Program-made: the position numbers and the translations under genes
Source: Acidimicrobiia bacterium
GTDB taxonomy: Bacteria > Actinomycetota > Acidimicrobiia > IMCC26256 > PALSA-555
Assembly: GCA_035948415.1 (NCBI GenBank)
Contig: DASZJD010000017.1
Location: 1 to 64,000, forward strand
Direction: 5' to 3'
DNA length: 64,000 nt
Notes under the pieces: model-generated
The model's input: only the letters and a program-made list of their open reading frames with translations
The model's database searches: none
Told to the model about the DNA's origin: nothing
Shown here: positions 6,282-38,785 of the stretch, in pieces
How positions within the stretch are numbered: position 1 is the stretch's first letter
Layout of the letters: the number at the start of each line of letters is the position of its first letter

Positions 6282-6370
6282 CGGAGGGAGTGGGATTTGA
6301 ACCCACGGTGCCCATTGCTGGACACAACGGTTTTCGAGACCGCCCCGTTCGGCCGCTCCGGCATCCCTCC
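6282..6370 (-). tRNA. tRNA-Ser (anticodon CGA)
   Basis: The minus strand folds into a class II tRNA: acceptor GGAGGGA/TCCCTCC, discriminator G, anticodon loop CTCGAAA (CGA, reads UCG), a long variable arm and T-arm GGGTTCAAATCCC. CCA is not encoded. The 3' end is followed by a second copy of its last 11 bases, GGAGGGAGTGG, at 6271-6281. Confidence 0.95.
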
Positions 6371-7551: not shown

Positions 7552-7828
7552 GCGGACCGTGCTAGGCGGGGAGCTCGTGGTGCCCTGTACCCCCAATCCA
7601 CGCACGGGGGGCTGAAGCCCCGCCCGAGGCCCGATCCGCCGTTCGATCGGACCCGCTCGACCGGCGTCGAGGGTCGGGTCCTGCGCGACGAGACCCCGCG
7701 AACCGAGTCAGGTCCGGAAGGAAGCAGCTCTCAGCGGACCGTCCCGGGTGCCGCAGGCAAGCCTGGCCGGAGCCGGCGGCGGGCACCGCGAGGGCGGCGG
7801 CCAGGTCGACGGCGGGTGCACGGTCCGC
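7552..7828 (+). ncRNA. ffs: signal recognition particle RNA, large bacterial type
   Basis: This RNA scaffolds the signal recognition particle with Ffh and targets membrane proteins. The S-domain hallmark GTCAGGTCCGGAAGGAAGCA is at about 7708-7727. The upstream GGGGAGC and GTGCCCTGTACC segments match the Alu domain of the B. subtilis scRNA, so this is the long form, about 277 nt. The ends are set by a perfect 11-bp closing helix, GCGGACCGTGC (7552-7562) with GCACGGTCCGC (7818-7828). It lies about 60 bp before dnaX, the usual location in Gram-positive genomes. No protein gene is needed in this stretch. Confidence 0.93.
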
Positions 7829-18165: not shown

Positions 18166-18396
18166 ATGCCGGCGCCCCGCCCCGTTCTCCGCGCCATCTC
18201 GCCCGAGGCCACCCCCGATGAGGTGGCGGCGATCCTCGCCGCGATCACCGTCTGCCTGCCGGCGCGCCGGGCCCGTGGGGGCGACGACACGCTCCACGAG
18301 TGGGTCCGCACCTCGCGCCTGCGCGCGCACCGGTCGGGCCTCCGTCGCGGGCCCTGGCGCCTCTCGGGCCGGATGCCCCGCCGCAGCCGGGCGTGA
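18166..18396 (+). CDS. acyl-CoA carboxylase epsilon subunit
   Basis: Actinobacterial acyl-CoA carboxylases use a small epsilon subunit that holds the alpha and beta subunits together. The 76-residue product begins two bases after the pccB stop and has the features of the family: a short N-terminal strand (PRPVLRAISPEATPDEVAAILAAI) and a C-terminal Arg/Trp-rich part (WVRTSRLRAHRSGLRRGPW). Sequence conservation in this family is weak, so position next to pccB carries much of the evidence. Its stop overlaps the GTG start of the next gene (GTGA), indicating translational coupling. Confidence 0.8.
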   Translation: MPAPRPVLRAISPEATPDEVAAILAAITVCLPARRARGGDDTLHEWVRTSRLRAHRSGLRRGPWRLSGRMPRRSRA

Positions 18397-19517
18397 CGGC
18401 CCGTCCGATCGAGCCCGAGCTGATGAGCGTCGGGCCCGACGAGGTCGTCGTCACCTGCACGACCGCCGGTGACGAGCTCGTCACCACCCGGGTCGGCCCG
18501 CGCGAGGTGACGACGACGGGTCCGCGCCACGTGGCCCGCGTGATCGGCCTCGATCCCGACACCGAGTATCGGCTCACGGTCGAGGGCGCGCCGCCGAGCC
18601 GGTTCCTCCCCGCGACCGTTCGCACCCTGGCTCGTCCCGCCGGTCGCGTGCTCGCCACCGTCGCCACCGCCAACGACACCCACCTCGGCGAGCTCGAGTG
18701 CGGCCGCACCGGCGATCCAGCCACCGACGCCATCGGCCCGATCCTGCGCGCGGAGCCGGGCGCGCCGCCGTACCCCGAGACCATGAACCGCGCCGTCGTG
18801 GCCGACATGCGCCACCTCGACCCGGACGCGGTCGTGGTGAAGGGCGACCTCACCGCGATCGGCACCGAGGAGCAGTACGGCGCCTTCCTCGCTGCGTACG
18901 GCGGGCTCGGCGAGCGGATGCACCACGTCCGTGGCAACCACGACGCCCTGCTCGACCCGACCCTCGCGGTCGAGGACACCCCCTACGCCGTCGAGCTCCC
19001 CGGCGTGACCCTGGCGGTCCTCGACACCGTCATCCCGGGCACCGACGCCGGCCAGCTCCCCGCCGACCAGGTGCAGTGGCTCGACGACCTCGCGTCGGAG
19101 CGGGTCGGACCGGTCCTGGTCTTCGGGCACCACCACTGCTGGAACGTCGACGCGCCGCGCCGTCCGGCAGGCCCGTACTTCGGCATCCAGCCGTCAGACA
19201 GCGAGGCCCTCGTGGACGTGTTCGCGCGCCACGAGCACGTCGTCGGCTACTTCGCCGGTCACACCCACACCAACCGGGTGCGGCGCTTCGGCGCCGCCCA
19301 CCACCGGCCCTTCGTCGAGGTGGCGTGCACGAAGGACTACCCGGGAGCCTGGGCCGAGTACCGCATCTACGAGGGGGGCTACACCCAGGTCATGCGTCGA
19401 GTGCTGGCTCCGGCCGCGTTCGATTGGGCCGAACGCTGCCGCTCGATGATCCAGGGCGTCTACGGCGAGCTCGTCCTCGGCGGGATCGAGCACCGCTGCT
19501 TCGCCGAGCGGTTCTGA
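18393..19517 (+). CDS. metallophosphoesterase (class III phosphodiesterase-like)
   Basis: The product has a beta-rich N-terminal domain resembling a purple-phosphatase/fibronectin-like segment (about 1-75), then a full calcineurin-like phosphoesterase domain: ANDTHLGE, VVVKGDLT, RGNHDALL, VFGHHHCW and FAGHTHTNR. These five motifs bind the two metals. The substrate may be a cyclic nucleotide or phosphodiester, but the sequence does not show which. The GTG start overlaps the stop of the epsilon-subunit gene, so it is read from the pccB message; an ATG at 18423 is an alternative. The link to acyl-CoA carboxylase is unexplained. Confidence 0.88.
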   Translation: MTARPIEPELMSVGPDEVVVTCTTAGDELVTTRVGPREVTTTGPRHVARVIGLDPDTEYRLTVEGAPPSRFLPATVRTLARPAGRVLATVATANDTHLGELECGRTGDPATDAIGPILRAEPGAPPYPETMNRAVVADMRHLDPDAVVVKGDLTAIGTEEQYGAFLAAYGGLGERMHHVRGNHDALLDPTLAVEDTPYAVELPGVTLAVLDTVIPGTDAGQLPADQVQWLDDLASERVGPVLVFGHHHCWNVDAPRRPAGPYFGIQPSDSEALVDVFARHEHVVGYFAGHTHTNRVRRFGAAHHRPFVEVACTKDYPGAWAEYRIYEGGYTQVMRRVLAPAAFDWAERCRSMIQGVYGELVLGGIEHRCFAERF

Positions 19518-19538: not shown

Positions 19539-19612
19539 CGCGCCCCGAGGAGGGTTCGGCGTAGAGATCCCGGCCCGGCTGCCGGGCGCCCCAACGGCCT
19601 CCTCGGGACGCG
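19539..19612. repeat. nested stem-loop element in the spacer after the phosphodiesterase gene
   Basis: Two 15-nt arms at 19539-19553 and 19598-19612 pair over their full length apart from one position, which is a G-U wobble on the minus-strand RNA. Inside is a second hairpin, GCCCGG-CTG-CCGGGC. The element directly precedes the DnaA-box-like cluster. It may be a terminator or part of a structured site. Confidence 0.5.
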
Positions 19613-19622
19613 AATGCGCACA

Positions 19623-19687
19623 GTATCCACCATTGTCCACAGTTTTTCCACTTCCCTGACCGGGTTCTCCACCGTGGCTGTGGACAA
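19623..19687. other. cluster of DnaA-box-like 9-mers
   Basis: Two exact actinobacterial-type boxes, TTGTCCACA at 19633-19641 and its reverse complement at 19679-19687, flank weaker matches GTATCCACC (19623), TTTTCCACT (19644) and TTCTCCACC (19665). Spacings of about 10, 11, 21 and 14 bp keep most boxes on one helix face. The stretch is clearly richer in A+T than its surroundings. No dnaA or dnaN lies nearby. Confidence 0.6.
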
Positions 19688-19774
19688 CCGGCCCCAGGCG
19701 GCGCCGGACCCCGCGGGTGGCAGGCCGGGGGGCGAACCGGCCGCGCGAGACTGCGGGCCGAAAGGGGGGGCGAG

Positions 19775-21586
19775 GTGCCGCAGGTGACGTCGGAGGAGCT
19801 GGCCCGGGCCGTGGCCGGGCAGACGGTCGCGACCCGCTTCCGGGACACGGTGGCCGCCCGGGGCGACGCCGTGGCCCTGCGGTGGCGGACCGGAGAGGGC
19901 TGGGGCGAATGGACCTGGGCCGATTACGCCGATCGGGCCTGCCGGCTGGCGGCGGCGCTCGAAGGGCTCGGCGTCGGACCCGGCGACCGGGTCGTCCTGA
20001 TGATGCGGAACCGGCCCGAGTTCCACGTCGCCGACGTGGCGTCGGTCCTGGTCGGCGCGACCCCGGTGTCGATCTACAACTCGTCAGCGCCGGAGCAGGT
20101 CCAGTACCTCACCCAGCACTCGGGGGCAGTGGCGGCGATCGTCGAGGACGTCGGGTACCTCGAGCGGCTCCTCAAGGTGCGCGACGAGCTGCCGGCTCTC
20201 GCGCACATCGCCGTCATCGACGACGACGGCCGCGCCCCCGACGAAGTCCTCCACTTCGAGGAGCTGTGTCGCGGGAGCGCCGTCGACCTGGACGTCGCCG
20301 CGGCGAGGCCGCGACCCGAGGACCTGGCCACGGTCATCTACACCTCCGGGACGACCGGCCCGCCGAAGGGCGTCATGATCGACCACGCCAACGTGGTGTG
20401 GACGGTCGAGAGCTTGCGGCGCACCCTGCCGATCGACCCCACCGGCTTCCGGGTCGTGTCGTACCTGCCGATGGCGCACATCGCCGAGCGGATGGTGTCC
20501 CACTACTGGGGCGTCGTCTTCGGCTACGAGGTCACCACCTGCCCGGAACCGTCGCTCCTCTCGCAGTACCTCCCCGAGGTCCGCCCGCAGCTGCTGTTCG
20601 CGGTGCCCCGGGTGTGGGAGAAGATGCACGCCGGGGTGCTCGCGATCTCGGGTCGGGACGCCGAGGGACGGCGGGCGCTCGACGCCGCGCTCGCGGTCGG
20701 GGAGCGCGAGCAGGAGCATCGAGCCCGGGGCGAGCCGCTGCCCGAGGCGCTGGCGGCCGAGTACCGGGCCCACGCGCCGACGCTCGCGTTCGTTCGCGAG
20801 ACCCTCGGCGTCGACGCGGTGCAGGCCGCGCTCAGCGGGGCGGCACCGCTCCCTCGCGAGGTCCTCGTCTTCTTCCGGTCGCTCGGCCTCGAGCTGTCGG
20901 AGATCTACGGGCTGTCCGAGTCGTCCGGGCCCATGACGTGGGAGCCGTTTCGAGTCAAGGTCGGCACCGTCGGACGCGCCATCCCCGGCTGCGGGGTGCG
21001 TCTGGCCGAGGACGGCGAGGTGCTGGCTCGGGGCGGGAACATCTTCCGCGGGTACCTCAACGACGCCGAGCGGACCGCGGAGGCCCTCGACGAGGAGGGC
21101 TGGCTGCACTCCGGCGACATCGGCCAGCTCGACGCCGACGGCTACCTGCGGATCGTCGACCGCAAGAAGGAGCTGATCATCACCGCCGGGGGCAAGAACA
21201 TCAGCCCGGCGAACATCGAGGCGGCGCTGAAGGCCTCGCCGCTGATCGGGCAGGCCTGCGTCATCGGCGACGGTCGGCCCTTCGTGTCGGCGCTGCTCGT
21301 GCTCGACCCCGAGGTGACACCGGCGTGGGCCAAGACCCATGGTGTCGACGCCGACTCGCTCGAGGCCCTCGCCCACGACCCGGCGGTGCACGCGGAGGTG
21401 GAGCGCGAGGTCGGTGCCGCCAACGAGCGGTTCTCGAGCGTTGAGCGAGTGAAGCGCTTCACGGTGCTCGGCCAGGAGTGGCTCCCTGACTCGGAGGAGC
21501 TCACCCCGACGATGAAGCTGAAGCGGCGCGGGATCCACGCCAAGTACGCCGACGAGATCGAGGCGATGTACGACCAGCCGCGCTGA
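19775..21586 (+). CDS. long-chain fatty acyl-CoA synthetase (FadD15-like)
   Basis: The enzyme activates fatty acids to acyl-CoA by way of an acyl-adenylate. The 603-residue protein has the AMP-binding P-loop-like motif YTSGTTGPPKGVM at about residue 189, the YGLSESSG motif, and the C-terminal hinge and catalytic lysine region (IVDRKKELIITAGGKNISPANIE). The length and an insert-containing middle domain match long-chain enzymes of the FadD15 type rather than short-chain synthetases. GTG 19775 follows a GGGGCGAGG stretch. Its upstream region holds the DnaA-box-like cluster, so its promoter is not obvious. Confidence 0.94.
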   Translation: MPQVTSEELARAVAGQTVATRFRDTVAARGDAVALRWRTGEGWGEWTWADYADRACRLAAALEGLGVGPGDRVVLMMRNRPEFHVADVASVLVGATPVSIYNSSAPEQVQYLTQHSGAVAAIVEDVGYLERLLKVRDELPALAHIAVIDDDGRAPDEVLHFEELCRGSAVDLDVAAARPRPEDLATVIYTSGTTGPPKGVMIDHANVVWTVESLRRTLPIDPTGFRVVSYLPMAHIAERMVSHYWGVVFGYEVTTCPEPSLLSQYLPEVRPQLLFAVPRVWEKMHAGVLAISGRDAEGRRALDAALAVGEREQEHRARGEPLPEALAAEYRAHAPTLAFVRETLGVDAVQAALSGAAPLPREVLVFFRSLGLELSEIYGLSESSGPMTWEPFRVKVGTVGRAIPGCGVRLAEDGEVLARGGNIFRGYLNDAERTAEALDEEGWLHSGDIGQLDADGYLRIVDRKKELIITAGGKNISPANIEAALKASPLIGQACVIGDGRPFVSALLVLDPEVTPAWAKTHGVDADSLEALAHDPAVHAEVEREVGAANERFSSVERVKRFTVLGQEWLPDSEELTPTMKLKRRGIHAKYADEIEAMYDQPR

Positions 21587-38711: not shown

Positions 38712-38785
<74 letters not shown>

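Follow-up and report, generated by a model that had tools for sequence, protein, structure and literature searches.

We describe an array of DnaA boxes that lies away from the origin of replication, in the spacer upstream of a fadD-like gene of an Acidimicrobiia bacterium (genome G000), and that recurs in place and in phase in relatives across the order. Its boxes, their spacing and conservation, its order-wide distribution, its separability from fadD and its non-origin status are matters of observation; DnaA binding, control of initiation and a role for the hairpin that precedes the boxes are what we infer. We consider it fairly likely that the locus is a chromosomal DnaA-binding array working outside the origin in the manner of datA or of the DnaA-box clusters of Bacillus subtilis and Streptomyces. 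Rather than an origin, it is probably a reservoir or brake that contributes to the timing of chromosome replication.

The DnaA-box array and its hairpin

The array was recognized in the window, i.e. the whole stretch of 64,000 nucleotides that was analyzed. The features of the spacer and of the genes on either side of it are as follows:

18300-19517, + strand: calcineurin-like phosphoesterase (metallophosphoesterase; Pfam PF00149), the upstream gene
19539-19612, + strand: conserved hairpin, in which the stem CGCG-c-CCCGAGGAGG (19539-19553) pairs with CCTCCTCGGG-a-CGCG (19598-19612)
19561-19567, + strand: unpaired segment GTAGAGA on the 5' side of the hairpin, with AGA invariant (alignment A1)
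19569-19586, + strand: inner hairpin CCCGGC-loop-GCCGGG, variable in sequence and length among relatives and mostly paired
19588-19595, + strand: conserved GCCCCAAC on the 3' side of the hairpin, with CCC and AAC invariant (alignment A1)
19623-19631, + strand: DnaA box 1, GTATCCACC, weak, two mismatches to TTNTCCACA
19633-19641, + strand: DnaA box 2, TTGTCCACA, perfect, no mismatch
19644-19652, + strand: DnaA box 3, TTTTCCACT, one mismatch
19665-19673, + strand: DnaA box 4, TTCTCCACC, one mismatch
19679-19687, - strand: DnaA box 5, TTGTCCACA, inverted, perfect, no mismatch
19747-19752, + strand: putative -10 element of fadD, GAGACT within CGCGAGACTGC, conserved as a motif in the window's family on comparison by eye
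19775-21586, + strand: fadD-like AMP-binding acyl-CoA synthetase (Pfam PF00501, E 1e-74)

Five DnaA-box-like 9-mers fall within 19623-19687, two of them perfect copies of TTGTCCACA, with start-to-start spacings of 10, 11, 21 and 14 bp; on recheck, the boxes, their orientations and their spacing were all as the original prediction had described them. The A+T-richer island that it had placed here was likewise borne out: the G+C content of 19612-19690 is 0.557 against 0.82-0.85 on both flanks, and only 0.3% of 79-bp windows are equally A+T-rich. TTGTCCACA is the high-affinity DnaA box of M. tuberculosis and S. coelicolor (PMC4285127). A count of its exact copies across the 3.4-Mb genome returned six, against one for the reversed control: two at the array, two at dnaA, and two single copies (contigs C23 and C130) that form no cluster. 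The chance expectation for pairs of TTGTCCACA within 65 bp is ~4-7 in 10,000 per genome. The nested hairpin that had been noted upstream of the boxes (19539-19612, -46 kcal/mol, z -2.2) is real and conserved, and is hence counted here as part of the finding. Elsewhere in the window, Rfam matches were seen to the large bacterial SRP RNA (7557-7823, + strand) and to tRNA genes (6282-6370 and 38712-38785, both - strand).

Conservation of the array across the order

A search with blastn using the spacer recovered matches in relatives across the order, in which the hairpin is immediately followed by TCCAC-type boxes. When a covariance model of the hairpin alone (R1) was run on 58 genomes of the order, 21 gave a single copy each of this ~75 bp element, and the 140 genomes sampled from the rest of the class gave none. 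The array lies directly behind the hairpin in 20 of these 21 genomes, the exception being G027, which has no array; likewise in 20 of the 21, the 90 bp after the hairpin outrank the rest of the fetched locus as a DnaA-box cluster. Among the members of the order that lack the hairpin and have a fadD orthologue, 14 were assessable, of which 10 carry the cluster upstream of fadD (G002, G005, G015, G026, G031, G036, G039, G046, G047 and G057) and the others, G024, G034, G052 and probably G021, do not. The array is also absent from G058 and G059, both outside the order, and is missing at the locus in G004 and G006, where fadD is gone too. The existence of relatives without an array at the locus indicates that it is not essential, although the genomes studied are mostly draft MAGs, in which some absences may be assembly gaps. 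Its absence from close relatives, which was to count against the original prediction, was not seen when the conservation of the spacer in related genomes was checked: the array is present in them.

The boxes hold largely constant positions with respect to the hairpin and to one another, with the direct boxes 10-11 and then 21-22 bp apart, and the inverted box at 13-15 bp in nearly all relatives (14 bp in the window). The ~15 bp offset of box 1 from the hairpin is kept in many relatives, and box 3 (TTTTCCA) is the best conserved box position among them. Gaps of up to 45 bp between direct boxes fall at multiples of ~10.5 bp in the hairpin genomes (n=29, R=0.92, p=3e-11), and the same phasing is observed in the hairpin-less genomes (n=15, R=0.85, p=2e-5), both p values being uncorrected for relatedness. 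As in a datA-type site, the DnaA-box cluster lies outside oriC and its box spacing is conserved in relatives.

Genomic neighborhood and the relationship to fadD

In the hairpin genomes with a contig of sufficient length, fadD is the downstream neighbor of the array. Upstream, synteny in most relatives extends to the phosphoesterase gene, which is often separated from the hairpin by a caiB-like gene; at loci L120, L122, L123, L129, L131 and L137, upstream of fadD, the stop codon of the caiB-like gene is the TAG of the conserved GTAGAGA, inside the hairpin. Between the array and the start of fadD we observed, by eye, a -10-like motif, which is CTACNAATGG-like in most families and GCGAGACTG in the window's family, and which makes regulation of fadD possible. 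A consensus-based scan returned no promoter.

This neighborhood allows the locus to be read as a DnaA-responsive control region, wherein DnaA upstream of the fadD promoter would couple the supply of acyl-CoA and membrane lipids to the replication cycle. We regard this as a tentative possibility. It is consistent with the location of the array directly upstream of fadD, before the conserved -10-like motif, in nearly all carriers, with the presence of boxes beside the -10 in some relatives (L130, L129), and with the lack of both fadD and the array at the locus in G004, G006, G045 and G053 (the last outside the fadD search). However, no fadD orthologue was detected at E<=1e-120 in G037 or G055, and yet both keep the phased array (with spacings of 20, 21 and 14 bp in G055), which in these genomes follows a caiB-like gene, precedes the 3' end of an opposite-strand gene, and sits between two gene ends. 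The convergent gene on its far side matches the gene after fadD in the other genomes and is GGDEF-like by eye, with no Pfam match for its 80-residue fragment. Conversely, G024, G034 and G052 have kept fadD without the array. Hence, array and gene are separable, and the array is not always tied to a downstream fadD promoter. Further, a literature search turned up no report of DnaA boxes in the regulation of fadD. Of the DnaA-regulated fadD promoter that had originally been proposed, a side role thus stands as possible, given the position of the array upstream of the conserved -10-like motif, but these five genomes show that it is not the whole story. Separately, two MAG records titled 'Bifidobacterium breve' (L043, CAMBEL010000018.1; L044, CAMDCC010000124.1) contain fadD sequences 64-70% identical to that of the window, and their titles look wrong.

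The conserved hairpin

In the outer stem, seven pairs are altered on both sides, giving a covariation score reached by none of 500 shuffles, and the inner hairpin pairs above its shuffles in most of the 20 genomes folded (combined shuffle p ~2e-9), with neither comparison corrected for relatedness. Several possible sources of the element were considered and set aside. Its single copy per genome and constant gene neighborhood reject a mobile or REP-like element; no Rfam model matches it above the gathering score, and a known RNA family is rejected accordingly; and the exact core pattern has no match in viral contigs. A protein-coding origin is similarly rejected, for while the 5' arm overlaps the 3' end of caiB in several relatives, the hairpin is present in the window without caiB. 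A riboswitch in the fadD 5' leader is unlikely because of the -10-like motif between the array and fadD, and because many fadD genes lack the hairpin.

No T-run of the kind that defines an intrinsic terminator follows the G+C-rich stem. U-poor terminators have been reported in actinobacteria. The conserved loop bases of the hairpin exceed the needs of a plain terminator, and these bases and the missing T-run are unexplained by one. A different hairpin occupies the same place in G031 and G047. A comparison of G005 (L218) with the same-genus G007 (L124) reveals a hairpin that is apparently cleanly gone from the former, with the flanking GGACGCG and the array kept.

The hairpin and the phased array might act together as a two-part initiation-control element specific to one Acidimicrobiia order, with DnaA and RNA polymerase mutually controlling each other. 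We judge this unlikely; if true, transcription of the neighboring lipid operon and the capture of DnaA would be coupled through the cell cycle. It is quite unlikely, too, that the hairpin is itself the functional part, i.e. an undescribed structured RNA (a 3'-UTR-derived sRNA or a DnaA-coupled terminator) to which the boxes are the partner. Such an RNA would fit a single-copy, order-specific element outside all Rfam families, with a covarying outer stem, an inner hairpin whose pairing is maintained while its sequence and length change, the conserved segments GTAGAGA and GCCCCAAC, and, in many genomes, a constant distance to the first box. Against it, many genomes keep the array without the hairpin (G005, G026, G031, G046 and others), and its replacement by a different hairpin in G031 and G047 is as expected of a terminator.

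The replication origin lies elsewhere

The gene dnaA, which had been reported as absent from the window, is located on contig C94, next to dnaN and the run of rpmH, rnpA and yidC, these neighbors being recognized by reading the sequence. At dnaA-dnaN, G000 and eight other genomes of the class have a normal oriC that carries box arrays of its own. In G028, whose main contig spans 3.0 Mb, the cumulative GC skew has its minimum at dnaA (~0.83 Mb) and its maximum near 2.4 Mb; at the array, at 1.057 Mb, the sign of the skew is constant, without a switch. Thus, although phased DnaA boxes in an A+T-rich island might be expected of a relocated or second replication origin, this reading is very improbable, and the relocated origin of the original prediction is rejected by the intact oriC arrays at dnaA-dnaN and by a skew in G028 that turns at dnaA, 228 kb away.

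fadD and its upstream spacer lie on the dnaN side of dnaA, at a distance of 228 kb (G028), 175 kb (G047) or 171 kb (G026), which places the array in an origin-proximal position in these three near-complete relatives; G000 being in 133 contigs, the distance rests on them, and its similarity may merely reflect gene order. The arrays of the dnaA promoter and oriC are spaced otherwise (11 then 12, and 12 then 10; R=0.45), indicating that the fadD array is not a copy of them. The dnaA promoter has a rigid three-box module of its own, with a + box followed by two - boxes at 11-12 and 12 bp, in 8 of 8 assessable genomes (L001, L140-L143, L145-L147, just upstream of dnaA), which suggests conserved DnaA autoregulation.

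In G028 the array is the top-scoring box cluster of the 2.02 Mb sampled (~67% of the chromosome), tied with one at 0.902 Mb. Its score of 21.3 compares with 20.0 for the reversed motif and at most 18.7 for six composition-permuted motifs, and as these controls score nearly as high, it is conservation and not the single-genome score that is decisive. Hence, a chance clustering of TCCAC motifs, though other motifs reach nearly the same single-genome level in 2 Mb, has a negligible probability, being refuted by conservation in place and phase across many families. The tied cluster (L177, G028:C1:902382-902480; TGTCCACAGCCTGTGGATAACTCTGTGGGTAA) lies ~72 kb from dnaA. We also observed a recurrent tight inverted pair of perfect boxes, with starts 11-13 bp apart, away from dnaA, which is possibly another conserved DnaA site (G047:C1:490262-490282, ~30 kb from dnaA; G004:C259:9541-9561; G034:C236:13350-13370; G005:C36:218827-218848; G052:C73:23942-23961; G031:C70:4251-4283).

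A proposed role in timing initiation

The best reading is, by analogy, that of a datA-like locus, which would bind a DnaA oligomer and tune initiation, with the hairpin as an insulating terminator or attenuator. The titration site like datA or DARS suggested by the original prediction is accordingly the best supported of its three readings, given an array that is conserved, phased, off-origin, ~170-230 kb from dnaA and kept without fadD, its function being a prediction. In the simplest mechanism, a DnaA oligomer would nucleate at perfect boxes and extend over weak ones, following a model from earlier work on the arrays of E. coli oriC (PMC4451416, PMC4285127). We posit that one or two strong boxes might anchor DnaA, that the weaker boxes, one or two helical turns apart and on one face of the DNA, might then allow the oligomer to grow, and that the inverted box ~14-15 bp away might close it. 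As the site would be replicated soon after oriC, the new complexes could absorb DnaA or alter its nucleotide state, and re-initiation would be damped. The hairpin, in turn, may be the folded 3' end of the RNA of the upstream operon, a terminator or attenuator keeping read-through transcription off the complex.

Control of initiation by off-origin DnaA sites is known from a few model bacteria, and the array adds a deeply conserved case from an actinobacterial class that is mostly uncultured. Its spacing by one or two turns, closing inverted box and partner hairpin are regular enough to guide searches for such sites elsewhere. Moreover, since fadD, the hairpin and the array are each missing from some genomes in nature, the roles of the parts can be tested directly and separately.

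Comparison with known DnaA-binding loci

The datA locus of Escherichia coli is, like the array, an off-origin box cluster that is intergenic and origin-proximal, behind an operon's terminator/attenuator and before another promoter (PMC10950094, PMC4585315). There, the terminator/attenuator of the upstream operon and DnaA binding limit the read-through that would keep IHF off (PMC10950094), and within E. coli datA keeps its position with respect to oriC (PMC4585315). The hairpin described here lies in the corresponding position, at the upstream gene's end or even overlapping it. Unlike E. coli datA, the array has its boxes in strict phase, one or two turns apart, and the sequence, genes and box layout differ. 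Actinobacterial IHF differs in its specificity.

DARS1 and DARS2 of E. coli are comparable as short intergenic clusters of three to six boxes in conserved positions (PMC4585315), but their activity, the reactivation of DnaA, is the opposite, and DARS2 has a requirement for IHF/Fis. In the arrays of E. coli oriC, weak boxes are filled cooperatively from a strong box, and spacing matters for cooperative DnaA binding (PMC4451416). These low-affinity arrays are like the present one in having weak boxes close together (PMC4451416), whereas the oriC and dnaA promoter of the genomes studied here have spacings different from those of the array, at which there is no origin. The DnaA-box clusters of Streptomyces coelicolor and Bacillus subtilis are described as analogues of datA and are reported to repress untimely initiation (PMC5742627). 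The account consulted mentions no hairpin partner such as accompanies the present array. The Streptomyces box is also TTGTCCACA, as in the array described here (PMC4285127).
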